Below, one piece after another: positions 1,866-62,233 of a DNA stretch of 64,000 nt. The notes below the pieces were generated by a model that was given only the letters and a program-made list of their open reading frames with translations, did no database searches and was not told the DNA's origin. Each line of letters starts with the position of its first letter. Position 1 is the first letter of the stretch. The DNA is taken from contig NZ_JHAL01000002.1 of assembly GCF_000738005.1 (NCBI RefSeq), forward strand, positions 804,634 through 868,633, written 5' to 3'. Position numbers and translations under genes: made by a program. The stretch comes from Bifidobacterium crudilactis (GTDB lineage: Bacteria; Actinomycetota; Actinomycetes; Actinomycetales; Bifidobacteriaceae).

Positions 1866-2789
1866 ATGACACTGCTGCAATTGAAATACATCGTCAAAAT
1901 CGTGGAATGCGGTTCGATGAACGAGGCATCCCACGAACTCTATGTTTCACAGCCTGCTCTGAGCTCCTCCGTCAAAGAGCTGGAGAACGAATTGGGTATC
2001 GAGATTTTCACCCGCTCGTCTCAGGGTATCGCACTGACCGTTGACGGCGCTGAATTCCTCACCTATGCGCGTCAGGTGCTCGACCAGTCGGCTCTGCTCG
2101 AAGAGCGCTACAAGAACGCCAAACCGCGCAAGCAGCTCTGCCGCGTTTCGACACAGCATTACATGTTCGCCGTCGAAGCCTTCGTGGAAATGATTAATTC
2201 GACCAAATCCGACGAATACGAATTCACTATACGGGAGACGCGCACCAGAGACATCATCAATCAGGTCGCGAACATGCAATCGGAGGTCGGCATCATCTAC
2301 CTGTCCGATTTCAACAAGGATGTCATCGGCAAACTACTTCGCGAGAAACATCTCGAGTTCCACCCGCTCTTCCGCGCAGGACTGCATGTGTTCCTCTCAC
2401 GCAACAACCCTTTGGCGATGAAGAAGAAAATCACCATGAAGGACCTGGAACCATATCCCTTCATCCAATACGAGCAGGGCGACGAGGGCAGTTTCTACTT
2501 CGCGGAGGAAGCCGTGTGGCCGGAGTACTCCCCCAAGCAAATCAATGTGACGGACAGAGCGACCATCCTCAACTTCATCGTCGGACTCAACGGGTACACG
2601 GTGTGCACGGGGATAGACAACGAGGACCTCAACACCGAGAAAATCGTGACCGTACCCTTGGACTCCGACGAGTCGATGCTGCTCGGATGGATTACCAACG
2701 AACGCGCGAAGATTTCGGCAGCTGCAGGACTGTATCTCGACAAGCTCAAAAGCGTCGTCGCCGACCACGGATACAACATCATCGAATAG
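1866..2789 (+). CDS. LysR-family transcriptional regulator
   Basis: This 307-residue protein has the standard LysR layout: an N-terminal winged helix-turn-helix (residues about 1-60, with GSMNEASHELYVSQPALSSS and ELGIEIFTRSSQG) and a periplasmic-binding-like effector domain (about 90-295). The effector is not identifiable from sequence. It stands alone on the plus strand between gpmA and the convergent pyr operon, so its target cannot be inferred from operon context. No Shine-Dalgarno sequence precedes the ATG. A TATAAA hexamer lies only 8 bp upstream of it, which would place transcription start at or near the start codon. Confidence 0.88.
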   Translation: MTLLQLKYIVKIVECGSMNEASHELYVSQPALSSSVKELENELGIEIFTRSSQGIALTVDGAEFLTYARQVLDQSALLEERYKNAKPRKQLCRVSTQHYMFAVEAFVEMINSTKSDEYEFTIRETRTRDIINQVANMQSEVGIIYLSDFNKDVIGKLLREKHLEFHPLFRAGLHVFLSRNNPLAMKKKITMKDLEPYPFIQYEQGDEGSFYFAEEAVWPEYSPKQINVTDRATILNFIVGLNGYTVCTGIDNEDLNTEKIVTVPLDSDESMLLGWITNERAKISAAAGLYLDKLKSVVADHGYNIIE

Positions 2790-2854
2790 CGTCGACCATC
2801 GCCGTACCACCATCGCGTCACTTGGATGACGTTACGGAGATACGGCGATGCCGT

Positions 2855-2962
2855 TTGTGTAGGGAGTATTTTGCAGCCGTTCTTTCGCGCGAGTTCTGAT
2901 TACCGCTGTTCCGCCAATTATGAGATGTTTCTACCCCGAGATACTCAGGAATCCCTACACAA
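2855..2962. repeat. About 110-bp intergenic inverted-repeat element, copy A
   Basis: The copy is bounded by perfect 11-bp inverted repeats, TTGTGTAGGGA (2855-2865) and TCCCTACACAA (2952-2962). A TTCCGCC heptamer starts 43 bases after the left arm. It shares arms, heptamer and spacing with copies at 21956-22064 and 43287-43397; the rest of the interior differs. It lies between the convergent LysR and pyrE genes. No open reading frame of note and no clear flanking duplication are visible. Confidence 0.8.
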
Positions 2963-3009
2963 TCGTTCATCCGAGAAAATTCCAGGGCGCCATACGCATC
3001 ACGCGTGCT

Positions 3010-3729
3010 TCAGCGCGAACCGTAGGTATCCAGATAGCGTTCGGCTTGCGCCTGCACCTCACTGGTGAGGATTGTCTTGCCATCCGAAGCGGTGATATGT
3101 GATGCCGCATCGAAAATCTCACGTATGTTGGCGATGCTCAGTACGGGGAATCCGAATTCGTCCTCAACCGCCTGCACTGCCGAGATGTCGCCGTCACCGG
3201 AACGTTCCATGCGGTCGACCGACAGCACCAGACCCACCACGTTGATATTCGCTTCGGCCTTGAGCTTGGGGATGGATTCACGCACTGCGGTTCCCGCCGT
3301 CATCACGTCGTCGACCATCACCACGTTCATACCGTCGCGCAGGGCCGTTCCGACGAAGGAACCGCCGTCGCCATGGTCCTTCTTCTCCTTGCGGTCGAAG
3401 GTGTATCCGATGGGAAAGTCGTGAGCGCTCGTCAAGGCTATCGCCGTGGACACGGCAAGAGGAATACCTTTGTATGCCGGTCCGAACACGGTGTCGATGC
3501 GTTTCGGGAACAGGCCATCGGCGATGGCGTTCTGGACGACGGTGGCGTAGAACTCCCCCAGCAGCGCTATCTTCGCACCGTTGTCGAAGGCACCGGCATT
3601 GATGAAGTACGGCGATTGCCTCCCGGATTTCAACGTGAAATCGCCGAAGCGCAAGGCACCTGACTGCAGCAGAAACTGCGTGAAGCGATGTTGCAACGAT
3701 GTGTCCTGTGGTGATGCCACCTCTACCAT
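3010..3729 (-). CDS. pyrE: Orotate phosphoribosyltransferase
   Basis: PyrE joins orotate to PRPP to give OMP, the fifth step of UMP synthesis. The 239-residue product has [16 protein letters not shown] near the N-terminus, [12 protein letters not shown], and the PRPP-binding loop [17 protein letters not shown]. The start chosen is the ATG at 3727-3729, which gives the family length; the frame is open further upstream but only inside pyrD. This ATG overlaps the restored stop codon of pyrD, so translation is probably coupled. It is the last gene of the pyr operon. Confidence 0.93.
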
Positions 3730-18013: not shown

Positions 18014-19957
18014 CTACTCCTGAGACTGCGTGAACTGTGAATTATACAGGGTGGCGTATGCGCCGTCCTGTGCTATCAGTTCGTCATGGGAGCCCTGTTC
18101 GACGATTGATCCGTGGTTCACCACCAGAATGAGATCGGCATCGCGAATGGTGGACAGACGGTGGGCGATGACGAAGCTGGTGCGGTTCTCGCGTAGAGCG
18201 TTCATGGCCTGCTGCACCAGCAGTTCCGTTCTGGTGTCCACGGAGCTCGTCGCCTCGTCGAGTATCAGGATGTCAGGGTCGGAAAGGAAGGCCCTGCATA
18301 TCGTCATCAGCTGACGCTCCCCCTGACTCAGCTCGGAACTGTCCTCGTTGAGCACGGTGTCGTAGCCATTGGGGAGTCTGCGGATGAACTCGTCGACATG
18401 GGTCGCCCTCGCTCCTGCAAGCATCTGCTCTTCGCTCAGTTGCCTGCCTTCCTGGACACCATACAGCAGGTTGTCGCGCACGGTGCCGTCGAACAGCCAG
18501 GTATCCTGCAGAACCATGCCGAAATGTCTGCGAAGACTGTCCCTGGTGACCGTCGCGGTATCCACGCCGTCGATGGTGATGGCGCCTCCCTGAATTTCAT
18601 AGAAGCGCATCAGCAGGTTCACCAAGGTTGTTTTCCCTGCTCCGGTGGGGCCTACGATTGCGACCGTCTGCCCAGGTTTTGCTTCCAGGGAGAGATGCTG
18701 AATCAGGGGTTCATCGGAACGATAGGAGAAGGACACATCATCGAAACGGACATGACCTTCGATGTTGCCGCCCGTGAGCTCGCCGATTTCGTGTGCATCC
18801 ACCGGGTCGGGCTGCTGCTCCTCCTCATCCAGGAATTCGAAGATGCGCTGGCAACTGGCCAAGGAGCTCTGGAGCATGGTGCCCATGGAAGCCAATTCGC
18901 CGAGTGGCTGGGAGGACTGTCGGGAGTACTGCGTGAACGCCTGCAGATCACCCAGGCTCAAGGTGCCGGAAAGCACTTTGACACCACCGAAGATAACGAC
19001 CAGCACGAAACTGAGGTTTCCGAAGAAGGTCGTTACCGGCGTGACCAGAGACGAGAGGAACGACGCCTTGAACGAGGCGTCGTACAGTTGACGATTGCGC
19101 TTGTCGAACTCTTCTTTCGCGGCGTCCTGTCTGCCGTATGAACGCACGATCATATGCCCGGAGAACATCTCCTCGACATGGCTGTTGACCTCTCCGGTCT
19201 TGGCCCACTGTGCGATGAAGTTCGGCTGGGTCTTCTTCATGATGAATGCGGCGCACAAGCCCATCACCGGAATGATGACGAAAGCCACCAGCGTGAGCAT
19301 GGGCGAAATCGAGAGCATCATGATGAAGGTCGCAACCACCATGAATACCGAGAAGAACAGCTCTCCGAGAATCTGCTGCAAGGTCTGGGAGATGTTGTCC
19401 ACATCGTTGGTCGTACGGCTCATGACCTCCCCGCGCGGCGTCCTGTCGAAATACTGCAGGGGCAGACGGGACATCTTGTCCTCGATCTGCGCACGCATCC
19501 GAAACACGGCGTCCGAGACCACACGTGTCATCAGGAAGTTCTGCACCAGTCGCAGCAGAATGGAGACCAGATAGATGGCGATGACGATCAGCAGAATCGT
19601 GCCGAAGGTCGACCAGTCGATGCCTTGGCCTGCTTTGACGTTCATCGAGGCGATCATGTCCGCGAAGGAACCCTTGCCCTGCGCACGCAGGGCCGCGACG
19701 ACCTGTTCGGTCGGCGTTCCTGCCGGGACACCCTGCTTCTGAAGCATTGTGCCGAGGATACCCGAGAAGAGCACATTGGTGGCCTTGCCCAGTATCTTCG
19801 GGCCCAAAGCAACCAATCCAACCGATATCATGCCCGAAATGACCATAATGATCACTCGGATCTTGCTGGCCAGCAGATACTTCAGCAGGCGCTTGATGAT
19901 CTTGCCGGTCTGTCCCTTTTTCTGCATTGGGATTGCAGCTGTCATTCCCTCTGTCAT
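18014..19957 (-). CDS. ABC exporter half-transporter, second subunit (permease-ATPase)
   Basis: The 647-residue fusion has an N-terminal six-helix exporter domain and a C-terminal ATPase. The ATPase has Walker A GPTGAGKTTLVNL, Walker B ILILDEATSSVD with the catalytic glutamate, and a signature written LSQGERQ instead of LSGGQ. The partner 19957-21717 has the complementary defect, so the pair should form a heterodimer with one degenerate and one active ATP site, as in BmrCD or TM287/288. Loss of the second Gly in the signature is visible directly. The substrate is unknown (drug or lipid are common). The start ATG overlaps the stop of the partner by one base. Confidence 0.9.
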   Translation of the reverse strand: MTEGMTAAIPMQKKGQTGKIIKRLLKYLLASKIRVIIMVISGMISVGLVALGPKILGKATNVLFSGILGTMLQKQGVPAGTPTEQVVAALRAQGKGSFADMIASMNVKAGQGIDWSTFGTILLIVIAIYLVSILLRLVQNFLMTRVVSDAVFRMRAQIEDKMSRLPLQYFDRTPRGEVMSRTTNDVDNISQTLQQILGELFFSVFMVVATFIMMLSISPMLTLVAFVIIPVMGLCAAFIMKKTQPNFIAQWAKTGEVNSHVEEMFSGHMIVRSYGRQDAAKEEFDKRNRQLYDASFKASFLSSLVTPVTTFFGNLSFVLVVIFGGVKVLSGTLSLGDLQAFTQYSRQSSQPLGELASMGTMLQSSLASCQRIFEFLDEEEQQPDPVDAHEIGELTGGNIEGHVRFDDVSFSYRSDEPLIQHLSLEAKPGQTVAIVGPTGAGKTTLVNLLMRFYEIQGGAITIDGVDTATVTRDSLRRHFGMVLQDTWLFDGTVRDNLLYGVQEGRQLSEEQMLAGARATHVDEFIRRLPNGYDTVLNEDSSELSQGERQLMTICRAFLSDPDILILDEATSSVDTRTELLVQQAMNALRENRTSFVIAHRLSTIRDADLILVVNHGSIVEQGSHDELIAQDGAYATLYNSQFTQSQE

Positions 19958-21717
19958 TATTCTCCCCTCCCATCCAAGCTCAAGGCCTCCACGTCAGGGC
20001 CCAGACCACCTTGCGACTCAACGATTTCCTGGTAGGTCGGGCATGAGTTCATCAGCTCGTCATGCGTGCCCCTACCTACGATCCTGCCTGATTCGAACAC
20101 CAGTATCTGATCGGCGTCTCTTATGGATGTAGCCCGTTGTGCCACGAGAATCTGCGTCGCATGCCGTGTGACCGGGGCCAGGGCTTCACGCAGTTTCCTG
20201 TCGGTCGCCACATCTAGGGCTGAGAAGGCGTCATCGAAGGTGTAGATCAGCGGCTGCCTGAGTATCGCTCTGGCGATGCACAGGCGCTGCTTCTGTCCAC
20301 CCGAGAAATTGGTCCCTCCTTCGGAAACGGGAGCATCGAGCCCCTGTGGGTTCTCGCGCACGAATTCCTCGGCCTGGGCGATGCGCAGTGCCTGCCAGAT
20401 GTCGTCGTCCGTGGCATGCTCCGCTCCGTACTGCATGTTCGAGCGGATGGTTCCGGAAAAGAGCATGGCCTTCTGCGGCACCTGTCCGAACATCAGATTC
20501 AGTTGGGCCGGATCGTACTCACGCACATCATGGCCGTCGATAAGCACCTCGCCGGAATTCACATCGAACATTCTGTTCATCAGTCGAAGGACGGTGGACT
20601 TGCCCGAACCTGTGGAGCCGATGATGGCAGTGGTTGTTCCGGGTTCCGCAGTGAATGACAGATCGTCGAGCACCGGATCGTCCGCACCGGGATAGGAGAA
20701 GCCGACATGACGGAATTCCACCTTGCCCAGAGGAGCGTCGGCGACGTAGGGATGCTCTGGCGCGGTGATGCTGCTTTTGGCCTCCATCACCTCAGTGATG
20801 CGCTTGCTGGCGACGGATGCACGCGGCACCATAACCATCATCATCGCCGCCATCATCAGACCGATGAGGATAATCATCAGATACTGGATGAAGGCCTGCA
20901 GAGAACCGATCTGCATGCCGCCGGATTCGATGCGCTTGCCACCGAACCACATGATGCCCACATTCGACAGGTTGATGATAAAGAACAGCAGAGGGATCAT
21001 CATGCTCATCAGACGTCCGGTCGACATCAGCGTGTCATACACCTTGCGATTGGCGACATGGAAACGCTGGGCTTCACTGCGCTCACGCACGAATGCCCTG
21101 ATGACCCGAACACCGCTGATCTGCTCGCGGACAAGCCTGTTCACCGCATCCAGCCTGCGCTGCATCTTGCCGAACAGCGGACCCATCTTCGACATCAGTA
21201 TGCCCGCTATCACCAGCACCACCGGCAGAATGACGGCAAGCGACCATGTCAACGGCCTGTCCTGGCGGAAGGCCAGGATCACTCCGCCGACGAACTGCAC
21301 AGGTGCCTGAAGCACGATCAGCAGCATCTGCATGGTGGTCATCTGCACCTGCTGCACATCGTTCGTCGTCCTCGTGATCAGCGAGCCGGCCGAGAAACGC
21401 TCGACCTCCTGCAGACTCATATCCTCTACCGCGCTGAAGATATCCCTGCGCGTCTCATAGCCGAGACGCATGGCCAGTCTGGTCGAGTAATAGACCGCGA
21501 CCAGGTTGGCCAGAATCTGCACCACGGAAATGCCGATCATCTGGAAGCCGTAGCGGTAGATGGCATCCTTGTCTCCTGCGGCAACCCCGTTGTCGATGAT
21601 GTCTGCCTGCAGATTCGGCAGATATAGATTGAGCACTGACTGTGCAATCTGGAATACCACCAGTATGGTGACCTGAAACCAGTATGGCTTGAGGTATTTG
21701 CCCCAAAGTCTTAACAT
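19957..21717 (-). CDS. ABC exporter half-transporter, first subunit (permease-ATPase)
   Basis: The 586-residue half-transporter has membrane helices in residues about 15-290 and an ATPase domain with Walker A IGSTGSGKSTVLRLM, canonical signature FSGGQKQRLCIAR and Walker B LIYTFDDAFSALD. The second Asp replaces the catalytic glutamate after Walker B, typical of the degenerate half of heterodimeric exporters. The start has GGAGG four bases before the ATG. A perfect 9-bp inverted repeat about 26 bp upstream (21743-21763) may be an operator. It is co-transcribed with the downstream half (TAATG overlap). Confidence 0.9.
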   Translation of the reverse strand: MLRLWGKYLKPYWFQVTILVVFQIAQSVLNLYLPNLQADIIDNGVAAGDKDAIYRYGFQMIGISVVQILANLVAVYYSTRLAMRLGYETRRDIFSAVEDMSLQEVERFSAGSLITRTTNDVQQVQMTTMQMLLIVLQAPVQFVGGVILAFRQDRPLTWSLAVILPVVLVIAGILMSKMGPLFGKMQRRLDAVNRLVREQISGVRVIRAFVRERSEAQRFHVANRKVYDTLMSTGRLMSMMIPLLFFIINLSNVGIMWFGGKRIESGGMQIGSLQAFIQYLMIILIGLMMAAMMMVMVPRASVASKRITEVMEAKSSITAPEHPYVADAPLGKVEFRHVGFSYPGADDPVLDDLSFTAEPGTTTAIIGSTGSGKSTVLRLMNRMFDVNSGEVLIDGHDVREYDPAQLNLMFGQVPQKAMLFSGTIRSNMQYGAEHATDDDIWQALRIAQAEEFVRENPQGLDAPVSEGGTNFSGGQKQRLCIARAILRQPLIYTFDDAFSALDVATDRKLREALAPVTRHATQILVAQRATSIRDADQILVFESGRIVGRGTHDELMNSCPTYQEIVESQGGLGPDVEALSLDGRGE

Positions 21718-21763: not shown

Positions 21764-21955
21764 AAACCTTGCCAAGACTACTACCGGATACTTTCCCGCC
21801 GTGACATATGCATGAATTATCCATGATTCTGCGCTCACCGTGAAAGACTTGCACACTTGGATGAACTCTGACTTTTAAGCCCTGACCTCTGAACTGTGAC
21901 ATCCGCAAGCCGACCGTAGGTGCTTTGGCACCGTTGCAGGAACTTGTATAACCAA

Positions 21956-22064
21956 TTTGTGTAGGGATTTCGAGAAGCATATGCTCTTGCACACCATTGT
22001 GGACGAGGTATTCCGCCGTTTTTCGACACCTTCAACCAGTGTTACTGTCAATTCCCTACACAAA
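21956..22064. repeat. About 110-bp intergenic inverted-repeat element, copy B
   Basis: Perfect 12-bp terminal inverted repeats, TTTGTGTAGGGA (21956-21967) and TCCCTACACAAA (22053-22064), flank 85 bp of mostly unique sequence. TTCCGCC begins 43 bases after the left arm, followed by GTTTTTCGAC, which is nearly identical to copy C. It occupies the 366-bp gap between the ABC exporter promoter and the end of the next ABC ATPase gene. The remaining gap sequence shows only the palindrome at 21743-21763. Confidence 0.85.
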
Positions 22065-22083
22065 AGACAGCGAAGGCGTCATG

Positions 22084-22968
22084 TCAAACCAGGAATGCGG
22101 ACCAACGACCCTGCTGCTGTGTGGCGTGCAGCTTCATACCGAAAATAGTGCTCAAACGCTCATCGGTAAAACCATGCTCAAGGTCGCCCCGGTACACGAT
22201 GGTTCCCGGTTGAGGATCGGCGCCGGACACTGCATCCTCATGTGCACGGGATTCGTCGCCTTGCTCCCTGCCCATGATGGCCACCTGATTGAATCCCCGT
22301 GGTATTTCCTCGAGCCTATGCGTCACCAGCACCACACTCATGCGGCGGTTCTGCGTACCGATATCGCTGAGCGCACGAATCACCAACTCCCTACCGCCAA
22401 GATCGAGACCAGTGGTGGGTTCGTCCAGAATCAGCAGTTCCGGCTCCGCCATCAGCGCACGACAGATGAGGACGCGTGTACGTTCGCCTTCGGAGAGTTT
22501 GAACATCCGTTTGCCACAGAGGTATTCGATACCGAAACGTGACATCAGCGCACGCGCGCGACCGAATTCCTCATCCGTGTATCTGTCCCTCCACCGTCCG
22601 GTCGTGGCGGTGAGCGCGGTGACCACCGCATCCAGGGGGTCCTCGTCGGGAGGGAAGGCTCGTGACAGTTCCGCCGAACTCAGACCAATACGATTCCTGT
22701 AGGAGAAAACATCCACCTTGCCGAGGCGGTTGCCGAGAATATCAACCGTGCCCGAACTCGGGTATCCCCTGGTGCTCATCATCGCGACGAGACTGGACTT
22801 GCCGATGCCGTTCGGCCCGAACAGCACCCATTTCTCACCGGGCTCGATGCGCAGATCGACATCACGCAGAATCACACGGCGTTGCCTGCGGAATTCCACG
22901 TCCCGCAGGTCCACCGCGGCGTCGGACCACCGCCCATTTCCAAGCGTCGTGTCCATCGCATCACCCAT
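22084..22968 (-). CDS. Stand-alone ABC transporter ATP-binding protein
   Basis: The 294-residue ATPase has Walker A FGPNGIGKSSLVAMM, signature KLSEGERTRVLICRAL and Walker B LLILDEPTTGLD, and H-loop VLVTHRLEEI. No permease gene is adjacent, so the complex it serves is unknown. The sequence style (molybdate/YlmA-like ATPases with FGPNGxGKSSL and THRxEEIP) is consistent with a small ATPase family that often occurs alone. The ATG at 22966-22968 is preferred over the longer frame, which would run into the glycogen synthase gene. An internal ATG at 22953 is also possible. Confidence 0.82.
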   Translation of the reverse strand: MGDAMDTTLGNGRWSDAAVDLRDVEFRRQRRVILRDVDLRIEPGEKWVLFGPNGIGKSSLVAMMSTRGYPSSGTVDILGNRLGKVDVFSYRNRIGLSSAELSRAFPPDEDPLDAVVTALTATTGRWRDRYTDEEFGRARALMSRFGIEYLCGKRMFKLSEGERTRVLICRALMAEPELLILDEPTTGLDLGGRELVIRALSDIGTQNRRMSVVLVTHRLEEIPRGFNQVAIMGREQGDESRAHEDAVSGADPQPGTIVYRGDLEHGFTDERLSTIFGMKLHATQQQGRWSAFLV

Positions 22969-23029
22969 GTGCCATTCCGCCTTCGTCAACTCTTCAACAA
23001 CACCGAAAACCACCGCACCACAATCGAAA

Positions 23030-34623: not shown

Positions 34624-34694
34624 CGAAACTGTGCAATCAGGCACGCGACACGCTACCGAGCCCACGCACCCCCATGCCGGATTGCACAGTTTCG
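34624..34694. repeat. GAACTGTGC two-stem hairpin element, solitary copy
   Basis: CGAAACTGTGCAATC (34624-34638) and GATTGCACAGTTTCG (34680-34694) are perfect 15-bp inverted repeats. The left interior begins AGGCACGCG like the four copies at 52829-53167. It lies between the lepA start and the end of the giant adhesin gene (stop at 34719). Confidence 0.8.
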
Positions 34695-42946: not shown

Positions 42947-43207
42947 GTGGCAAACATTAAGTCGCAGAAGAAGCGCGTCATCACTAACGATAAGGCGCAC
43001 GAGCGCAACATCGCCGTCAAGAGCTCAATCAAGACGGCTGTGCGCTCAGTACATGAAGCCGTTGAGAGTGGCGACAAGGCAGCTGCCCAGTCCGCATATC
43101 AGCTCGCGGCCCAGCGCCTCGACAAGGCAGCCGGCAAGGGCGTGATTCACAAGAACCAGGCCGCAAACCGTAAGTCAGGTCTGGCATCGGCGATCAACGC
43201 GCTCTGA
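42947..43207 (+). CDS. rpsT: 30S ribosomal protein S20
   Basis: The 86-residue, lysine/arginine-rich S20 binds 16S rRNA early in 30S assembly. It reads [20 protein letters not shown] at the N-terminus, and [13 protein letters not shown] is the conserved ending. The GTG at 42947 with a GGAG ribosome binding site is chosen because the conserved [10 protein letters not shown] begins there. The frame is open to 42890 but that part is not S20-like. A strong terminator follows. Confidence 0.95.
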
Positions 43208-43284: not shown

Positions 43285-43399
43285 CGTTTGTGTAGGGTTT
43301 TGCCATGAAGGGCAGTACATTCCGCTTACTGAAATCCCTGCGTTCCGCCGTTTTCGACGCTGCGATCTCCTAAAACTACCGCCAATCCCTACACGAACG
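43285..43399. repeat. About 110-bp intergenic inverted-repeat element, copy C
   Basis: The arms CGTTTGTGTAGGG (43285-43297) and CCCTACACGAACG (43387-43399) differ by one base. TTCCGCC lies 44 bases after the position equivalent to the arm end in the other copies, followed by GTTTTCGAC as in copy B. It lies between the convergent rpsT terminator and the TRIC-family gene. Confidence 0.8.
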
Positions 43400-43416: not shown

Positions 43417-44193
43417 TCACGCGGTCTCATCCGGATTATGGGTGATCGAAACATCTGCTTCATGGTCAGAGGGCTCGTGTATCTGCGGGTGCACCACAGG
43501 TCTCCGCAGATACCGCGACCGCATCCTCAGATGTGCCCGTTCGCGTTCCATGGCACCGGGAAGCATGATGTTGAACTTCACCGACAGCAGTCGCAGGGCC
43601 ACGATCAACGCCACGATTGCGAGGTCGAGTACCATCTCGCCTCGAAGATTGATTTTCCCCGCCTCGACGAATTTCCCGACGATGACGGTCAGGACGCAAC
43701 CAATGAAGGACGGCACGGCATACCAGTGTTTGTCGCGGATGACGGAAGGCACTTCATTCAGCAAGGTGTCCCTGATCACACCTCCTGCCAACGCGGTGAA
43801 CATGCCCATGAACACCGCTGTCATACCGGAGGTGTGGAAGGCCATGGCCTTCGCAGTGCCGTTGACTGCAAACAGGCCAAGCGCCATCGCGTCGACCACG
43901 ATCATGGATCTTGTAAGATTACCGATTTCAGGATGGGCGAAGGCAATCACTATTCCCGAGAGCAGAGCTGACAAGACGTAGCCCTTGTCGGTAATACCGA
44001 CTGGCGGAAGACTGCCGAGAAGCACGTCCCTGACGATTCCACCGCCCAGGGCGGTAACCCAGGAAATCATGAGAATGGTAAATATGTCATAGCGCTTACG
44101 AGTGGCCGCCAACCCTCCGGATAGCCCTGAACAAAAGATCGCCATGTATTCGATGGCAACAAACACCGCATTGCTCTCCAACGCAACCGACAT
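43417..44193 (-). CDS. TRIC-type (UPF0126) seven-helix membrane protein
   Basis: The 258-residue protein has the duplicated glycine-rich repeat of the UPF0126/TRIC cation channel family: a first copy with TALGGGIVRDVLLGSLPPVGI and a second with TALAGGVIRDTLLNEVPSVIR. Hydrophobic helices separate them. Prokaryotic TRIC homologues conduct monovalent cations, but the physiological role is not established. The ATG at 44191-44193 has GGGAGAG seven bases upstream and is preferred over the upstream ATG at 44238. The C-terminal 40 residues are hydrophilic. Confidence 0.82.
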   Translation of the reverse strand: MSVALESNAVFVAIEYMAIFCSGLSGGLAATRKRYDIFTILMISWVTALGGGIVRDVLLGSLPPVGITDKGYVLSALLSGIVIAFAHPEIGNLTRSMIVVDAMALGLFAVNGTAKAMAFHTSGMTAVFMGMFTALAGGVIRDTLLNEVPSVIRDKHWYAVPSFIGCVLTVIVGKFVEAGKINLRGEMVLDLAIVALIVALRLLSVKFNIMLPGAMERERAHLRMRSRYLRRPVVHPQIHEPSDHEADVSITHNPDETA

Positions 44194-52828: not shown

Positions 52829-53167
52829 CGAAACTGTGCATGATGGCACGCGAGGCTTGGTAATTCCTGTGCTTCGCGTGCACTCATGCACAGTTTCGTT
52901 TAGGACAGCTCTCAGAGCGGATGGGAACTGTACATATGAGCATGTGAAGCACGCCGATTTGCTGGCCTAACGTGCTGGTTTGCACAGTTTCAACTCAGGC
53001 TGCTGCGGAACTGTGCGTATGAGCACGCGTGGGAGCCGTATGAGGGTGCTGCGCGTGCTGGTTTGCACAGTTTCGGCTCGGGATGCGCCCACCATCTGCG
53101 GAACTGTGCCTATCGGCACGCCTGGGAGCCATATGAGGGTGCTGCGCGTGCCATTACGCACAGTTCC
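52829..53167. repeat. Tandem array of four GAACTGTGC two-stem hairpin elements
   Basis: Units lie at 52829-52898, 52925-52991, 53008-53074 and 53100-53167, with 16-26 bp between them. Each begins GAA(A)CTGTGC or a close variant, has an inner GCACGC/GCGTGC stem and ends GCACAGTT(T)C. Units 3 and 4 are nearly identical across the apical loop (GGGAGCC.TATGAGGGTGCTG). The first has perfect 15-bp outer arms. They fill the 393-bp gap between the convergent acyl-CoA ligase and pilin-like genes. No U-tract suggests simple termination. Confidence 0.85.
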
Positions 53168-62146: not shown

Positions 62147-62233
62147 GTCCGGGTGGCGGAATGGTAGACGCGCTAGCTTGAGGTGCTAGTGCCTATTTAT
62201 ACAGGCGTGCGGGTTCAAGTCCCGCTCCGGACA
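62147..62233 (+). tRNA. tRNA-Leu (anticodon GAG)
   Basis: The 87-nt gene folds as a class II tRNA. The acceptor stem is GTCCGGG with TTCCGGAC-type closing (one G-T pair), the anticodon loop TTGAGGT has GAG at 62180-62182, the long variable arm is GCCT-TATTTATAC-AGGC and the T-arm is GCGGG-TTCAAGT-CCCGC. The discriminator A is followed by non-CCA sequence, so CCA is added after transcription. Confidence 0.95.

Follow-up and report, generated by a model that had tools for sequence, protein, structure and literature searches.

A family of probable three-site DNA elements with phased inverted arms, retained at gene junctions in Bifidobacterium crudilactis and a relative

Overview

The three repeats found in the window, the whole stretch of 64,000 nucleotides analysed here, belong to a family of DNA elements with dozens of copies in each of two bifidobacterial genomes; a putative protein probably recognises both ends and the centre together and has retained these sites, which have also moved. 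They had been noticed in a sequence-only reading of the window as three intergenic copies with shared inverted ends; this observation was confirmed, with positions agreeing within a few bases, and the family is larger than that reading saw. Retention at fixed gene junctions, quantisation of length by the helical turn and arms that form species-specific dialects about a common centre had not been foreseen. Read from genome sequences, the elements have a defined geometry, are conserved, are copied as discrete units, are biased in their location and occur in dialects. Copies in the window and their neighbouring genes are summarized in Table 1.

Table 1. Inverted-arm elements of the window and the genes next to them
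Feature	Position	Strand	Description
Copy A	2852..2965	none	10-turn class; 104 bp from GTGTAGGG to CCCTACAC (2857-2960)
Copy A, arms	2852-2867, 2950-2965		
Copy A, centre	2909-2915		TTCCGCC
Left neighbour of copy A	1866..2789	+	LysR-type regulator gene, convergent
Right neighbour of copy A	3010..3729	-	phosphoribosyltransferase-domain gene
Copy B	21954..22066	none	10-turn class; 103 bp from GTGTAGGG to CCCTACAC (21959-22061)
Copy B, arms	21954-21969, 22051-22066		
Copy B, centre	22011-22017		TTCCGCC
Gene downstream of copy B	19957..21717	-	ABC exporter gene
Gene upstream of copy B	22084..23013	-	ABC ATPase gene
Copy C	43285..43399	none	10-turn class; 105 bp from GTGTAGGG to CCCTACAC (43290-43394)
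Copy C, arms	43285-43300, 43384-43399		
Copy C, centre	43343-43349		TTCCGCC
Left neighbour of copy C	42947..43207	+	rpsT (ribosomal protein S20), PF01649
Right neighbour of copy C	43417..44193	-	PF03458 membrane protein gene, convergent
Second inverted-arm family	34627-34691, 52832-52895, 53009-53072, 53102-53165		CGAAACTGTGC-N6-GCACGC arms, 64-65 bp

A large set of dispersed elements in two genomes

By searching the genome of the window (B. crudilactis, G000) with the pattern GTGTAGGG-N65..94-CCCTACAC, 53 places were found, against 0 for the reversed-pattern control. Among the 27 genomes of the genus that were searched, only one other, a second Bifidobacterium genome (G024), contained the pattern, at 77 places, and the remaining 25 gave no match. 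A wider gap (N95..124), searched additionally, added 3 places in G000 and 7 in G024, giving 56 and 84 exact-arm copies, respectively; arm pairs were thus searched up to 140 bp apart. All 84 copies of G024 and 52 of the 56 copies of G000 were fetched for analysis (136 copies), and the length of one of the four G000 copies outside this set is known (105 bp). Among 189 genomes of the bacterial family, TGTAGGGA arms at the family spacing were patchily distributed, being present in 8. In public genomes, mostly not bifidobacteria, the same 8-mers occurred at lengths of 85-114 bp without length classes, except for a bump at 113 bp among the matches listed. This, together with the empty reversed control and with the conserved junctions and the independent dialect described below, leaves a chance or artefactual origin of the repeat set with a negligible probability in our estimation. 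Literature searches by sequence and topic, with subscription journals mostly outside their scope, returned no report of these elements among the best matches.

Across the 136 fetched copies, the arms are inverted copies of CGTTTGTGTAGGGATT, about 16 bp long rather than the perfect 12-bp ends described previously, and not palindromic by inspection; in copy B, the outermost 2-3 bases deviate from the consensus. Weaker conserved positions follow the arm at 17-22 and 29-31. Since eight of the arm bases were fixed by the search pattern, the perfection of the arms in orthologous copies is partly built in. The centre is a degenerate dyad with AATGGCGGAATTCCGCCATT as its commonest form, which we read as roughly YGN-WWWW-NCR (commonest form TGGCGGAATTCCGCCA). 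The heptamer TTCCGCC, previously taken to be fixed, turned out to be the commonest half of this dyad: it was present in 11 of 52 G000 and 33 of 84 G024 copies, and GTTGCAAT or CTTGAAAT, among other halves, replaced it in some copies. Its start lay 0-1 bp past the exact centre in 39 of its 45 occurrences. The sequence-only reading had named a lack of further copies or a random placement of TTCCGCC as speaking against it, and neither was found.

Arm-centre distances are quantised close to the helical repeat

Measured between the outer ends of the 8-mers, all 136 copies fell into four length classes, 84 bp (3 copies), 93-95 bp (22), 103-106 bp (101) and 115-117 bp (10), and no other length occurred among them, with 81-140 bp open to the searches. 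The single overall size of about 110 bp suggested at first is thus replaced by four classes near 84, 94, 105 and 116 bp. The longest class comprised all 10 matches of a 111-140 bp search that was run after the first three classes were known. A line through the class means had a slope of 10.7 bp, and the best single period was 11.1 bp; both values are slightly above the 10.5-bp helical repeat of B-DNA, which counts against the phasing model.

The distance between arm and centre was quantised on each side separately. In the 105 class the core motif showed a shift of 0 from both arms; for the 94 class the two shifts were about 0 and −11, and for the 116 class about 0 and +10 to +11. In the 84 class, with only 3 copies, the core motif peaked at −11 and, equally high, at −2. 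The sub-terminal motif kept a constant distance from the arm in every class, and the four one-base arm variants among the matches listed, two per genome, all had in-phase lengths. Each arm-core distance thus equals an integral number of turns, most evidently in the three larger classes, and arms and centre lie on the same side of the helix. Paired sites at integral-turn spacing, a feature of the operator pair of a DNA loop, are found in these elements, and the earlier suggestion that ends and centre are recognised is supported by phasing and conservation. Helical phasing is usually demonstrated by mutations in a single promoter or att site, whereas in these two genomes evolution has run the phasing experiment at 136 places, leaving only whole-turn spacings, with the distance from centre to arm scored for each side.

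The halves of the element do not covary as an RNA stem would

Compared with shuffled partners, no covariation between left and right was detected in the interior or outside the arms, either in G024 or in G000: identity of left and right over positions 12-40 was 0.305 versus 0.314 expected in G024, and 0.286 versus 0.297 in G000. The single positions that exceeded shuffled partners were position 0 in G024 (z 5.2) and position −24 in G000 (z 2.7). This lack of covariation argues for a protein-bound DNA dyad and not an RNA stem, and both an RNA stem and a cruciform were rejected on this ground. In addition, at gathering scores of Rfam the window yielded only a tRNA at 62147-62233 and nothing at the elements.

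We regard it as very improbable that the elements act at the 3′ ends of genes as bidirectional terminators or structured RNAs. Their location does agree with such a role, the arms form a stem, position 0 in G024 matches above shuffled partners as given above, and on either strand the three window copies had a more favourable fold than shuffled sequences (z −2.1 to −4.7), but an unpaired RNA interior would give the helical spacing no role, and a putative intrinsic terminator, recognised by eye, already precedes copy C. Strong, terminator-like hairpins of 12-21 bp were present in 8 of 52 and 6 of 84 interiors (14/136), suggesting that some copies may serve termination, whereas the remaining interiors resembled shuffled sequence. 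The initial alternative between a mobile element and a structured RNA or DNA site was therefore upheld as regards recognised ends and centre and mobility, but not as regards structured RNA, for which covariation and an Rfam match are both lacking.

Old copies keep their arms at the same gene junctions

Orthology was assigned by blastn of the 1.5-kb flanks, both of which had to match one G024 copy. By this measure, 28 of the 52 fetched G000 copies share their gene junction with a G024 copy, and the other 24 had no two-sided match, indicating that single sites are gained or lost; the gene junction of copy B holds a 104-bp copy in G024. Gene orientation was identical in 28 of the 28 orthologous pairs, the distance to the genes was nearly equal in many of them, and two pairs were one class apart (104 vs 95, 84 vs 94). 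Orthologous interiors were 62% identical versus 59% for random pairs, and the intergenic DNA just outside the elements was about as diverged as the interiors, indicating that old sites keep their arms though neutral sequence has been overwritten.

In a relaxed scan of 267 kb of G000, all 49 pairs found were known copies, and in 361 kb of G024 two new pairs appeared, each with one changed 8-mer base and both in phase (the tally of 4 extra pairs, or 8 arms, includes two known copies from the overlapping stretches L187 and L188). No unpaired arms were present at a threshold of 0.6 in the fetched stretches of G000 and G024; at 0.5, there were 2 hits outside elements in G000 versus 4 in the reversed control. 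The scan covers the fetched stretches, and one-base variants occur elsewhere. Since these stretches held no unpaired arm and only in-phase variants, the arms seem to be kept by selection.

Regarding location, genes were called with our own hexamer finder. No copy lay inside a predicted gene, and partial overlap with a gene was seen for 2 of 52 copies in G000 and 2 of 84 in G024. Gaps of at least 120 bp with and without an element were then compared within the same stretches. In G000, gaps with an element were convergent in 26 of 50 cases and divergent in 1 of 50, versus 5 of 62 and 21 of 62 for gaps without one; the corresponding values in G024 were 34 and 3 of 81 versus 13 and 28 of 96. The elements are enriched in convergent gaps and avoid divergent ones. 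Evenly spaced sites of chromosome architecture were rejected as an explanation, the positions along the G024 chromosome being random.

The unit has also moved

Seven of the 136 copies, in three groups (two copies in L135 with L138; L145 with L146; two copies in L222), had the whole element in common between unrelated flanks, with homology stopping within about 6 bp of the 8-mers, indicating that the unit has also moved. Element identity was 97.3% for the two L135 copies, 94.7% for the two in L222, 88.8% for L145/L146 and 82-83% for L138/L135, and the three closest pairs lay 3.9, 20 and 9.5 kb apart. The mobile element that had been suggested is supported by this copying, which left no target duplication: for direct repeats of 1-6, 8 or 9 bp, the offsets examined gave no consistent excess, only scattered z values reaching 2.4 in a large number of tests, and no such repeat was seen by eye in the recent pairs. 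We also observed that the copies at L135:2054 and 5961 differ in the inner hairpin loop, where one has TTGATATTTCAA and the other the reverse complement of it, as though the palindrome had flipped.

These movements raise the alternative of a purely selfish, non-autonomous, MITE-like element whose arms and centre would be recognised by a transposase or recombinase from elsewhere, which we consider a serious though unlikely rival. In such an element, the short length would itself force phasing because both ends are synapsed on one small piece of DNA. Copying as a discrete unit between unrelated flanks and the patchy distribution of TGTAGGGA arms agree with it, as does the junction of copy C: the neighbour gene is present in 23 of 27 genomes, and by eye the element is there in two (G000 and G024) and absent in 17 of the 17 others readable, four loci being unreadable. 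However, the 28 orthologous copies keep intact arms despite nearly randomised interiors, the fetched stretches contain neither a decay series nor unpaired arms, no target-site duplication was found, and the Y1 transposase is absent from G000 and G024.

Two loci bear on exchange of DNA between elements. At L135:2054-6064 (G000 C1:133553-137563), two elements in direct orientation with 97% identity flank a 3.8-kb cassette that encodes a GH32 enzyme together with a LacI regulator and a sugar transporter. The whole lies between dcd and a P-type ATPase gene, and in G024 these outer genes enclose a single copy. At L152:2097, the left and right flanks correspond to the respective flanks of two different G024 copies (L216:2001, L226:2001), which indicates a rearrangement boundary at an element. 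Both would agree with a regulated recombination site, in which the arms would be accessory, the central dyad would be the crossover of a site-specific recombinase and the elements would bracket exchangeable segments. Integrase att and resolvase res sites likewise combine a weakly conserved core with arm or accessory sites placed in phase with it, a layout resembling that of the elements, but here there are dozens of symmetric sites per chromosome. Only two such junctions were found, homologous recombination or a nearby second copy could produce both, and 56-84 active crossovers would destabilise the chromosome, yet 28 junctions are conserved; we therefore judge this explanation to be quite improbable.

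Relatives carry other arms around the same core

The same core, accompanied by tandem 19-bp GTGTAGGGA units, was found in Bifidobacterium reuteri, B. myosotis and six genomes of genus g5, among which the first two may be included. In 17 GTGTAGGGA elements, the innermost pairs measured 54 bp (11 elements), 65-66 bp (5) or 73 bp (1), so that the phased lengths recur in other bifidobacteria. The exact core GGCGGAATTCCGCC was present in 54 of 189 genomes of the bacterial family, with 0 for the reversed control; it occurs once in G024 and is missing from G000 because the G000 cores are degenerate. Thirty core loci, drawn from part of the 54 core-bearing genomes, were judged by eye: 17 had matching inverted arms about 20-60 bp out, of about 14 different sequences, and 13 had no matching arms, two of these lying inside a gene in our reading. 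Arms TTCGCACTA, predicted from one locus each in two genomes (G103 and G104), were found there in 18 and 16 copies and in none of the 187 other family genomes; these elements were 77 or 78 bp long at all 22 places listed, with 62-91 bp allowed. Searching a second arm sequence (TTTGGTGTGA) yielded only 2 copies of 94 bp each in G046 and a single hit, 99 bp long, in G081. Within the genus, the stretches examined in G023 (273 kb) and G018 (120 kb) contained no other dialect. Genome G079 (locus L309) apparently has two arm dialects around one core, GTGTAGGGA units and GCGTCGCGTGACAA.

Junctions were also compared across genera, using 43 entries that represent 40 distinct places (L318=L326, L319=L325, L312=L254). 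Seven of the 43 entries matched a G000 or G024 copy on both sides. L318, L326 and L335 were dropped, as they match only L224 through weak ABC-type matches. Exact neighbours agreed on both sides for L255 and L260 and not for L323 and L330, and we base no conclusion on these matches. No gene common to the elements of many lineages, which might have pointed to the binding protein, emerged, the best 25 clusters showing ABC and housekeeping-type genes only.

The combination of a shared core with changing arms poses a testable question, namely how a chromosome-wide set of sites switches its recognition sequence. A speculative reading, which we hold to be possible but rather doubtful, is a family-wide bifidobacterial system that would join a conserved core to arms in a dialect proper to each lineage, spaced by whole turns, and would form micro-loops by the dozen on each chromosome; a fast-evolving arm-binding protein would drive genome-wide replacement of the arms, and the sites would act as insulators or as docks for the recombination of cassettes such as the sugar-use cassette.

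Proposed complex and comparison with known systems

With little better than even confidence, we propose that the elements form a symmetric three-site nucleoprotein complex that has spread by rare movement and is retained at gene ends; protein binding, looping and a benefit to the host are what we infer. A dedicated putative DNA-binding protein would occupy the two inverted 16-bp arms, and the same or a second putative protein would occupy the degenerate central dyad. With the arms 4, 5 or 6 helical turns from the centre, bending or wrapping of the DNA would gather the three sites on the same face in a compact micro-loop. Occasionally the unit would spread as a separate segment, with a preference for the 3′ ends of genes, and selection would then keep it in place, most likely because the complex is useful there, possibly as an insulator or chromosome anchor between transcription units. 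Each lineage would recognise arms of its own. The elements mark gene ends in a group of bacteria with wide use as probiotics, and the GH32 sugar-use cassette lies between two of them.

The element may work in the manner of a looped operator pair or an att-type site. In the GalR-HU repressosome and in LacI loops, two sites about 9-11 turns apart need to be in helical phase, and a bending protein sits at the apex. The arms may be comparable to such paired sites in helical phase; those, however, serve as operators at the promoters of one gene or a few, whereas dozens of elements here avoid divergent promoter gaps.

The nearest known kind is the RIB/BIME-1 element of enterobacteria, described in a section of PMC2817692 (citing Boccard and Prentki 1993) as two inverted REPs around an IHF site at the 3′ ends of transcription units. 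In both cases, as far as that section goes (PMC2817692), dispersed intergenic dyads with inverted outer sequences and a central site lie at gene 3′ ends, a location seen here as the excess in convergent gaps. Unlike RIB/BIME-1, the present elements have non-palindromic arms without hairpin covariation, whole-turn length classes and arms that vary by lineage around a shared centre, and their genomes have no RAYT gene: PF01797 (RAYT Y1 transposase) had no match in G000 or G024, 1 of 18 genomes was positive (G055, 3 matches), and the positive control was found in 5 of 14 known genomes. With non-palindromic arms and no PF01797, RAYT-associated REP/BIME elements were rejected under the definitions in that section (PMC2817692).

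MITEs are characterized in an excerpt of PMC10969869 as short elements of <500 bp that end in inverted repeats of about 4-30 bp, with direct repeats flanking younger copies. By that excerpt (PMC10969869), the elements resemble bacterial MITEs in being short (84-117 bp) and intergenic, with 16-bp terminal inverted arms, and in being copied as a unit to unrelated sites; they differ in lacking flanking direct repeats, in showing no decay series in the stretches read and in keeping their arms in old orthologues. Species-specific variants of a dispersed motif are also known as dialects of the DNA uptake sequences of Neisseriaceae, according to part of PMC3630211, and the arm dialects are similar in this respect (PMC3630211), but here there are tens of copies instead of hundreds to thousands, with a fixed three-part geometry.

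A second inverted-arm family in the window

The window also contains four copies of a second inverted-arm family (Table 1). The pattern ACTGTGC..GCACAGT occurred at 28 places in G000, 26 in G024 and 0-3 in the other 187 family genomes, with 0-2 for the reversed control. The N6 of the left and right arms covaried (0.573 versus 0.417, z 4.7, 32 copies), copies not 62 bp long being omitted (4/17 in G000 and 5/21 in G024 among those listed), so that this second family looks hairpin-like, unlike the main one. Its copies are sometimes arranged side by side (53009 and 53102, and further pairs), 83 or 92-94 bp apart, and these two spacings differ by about one helical turn.
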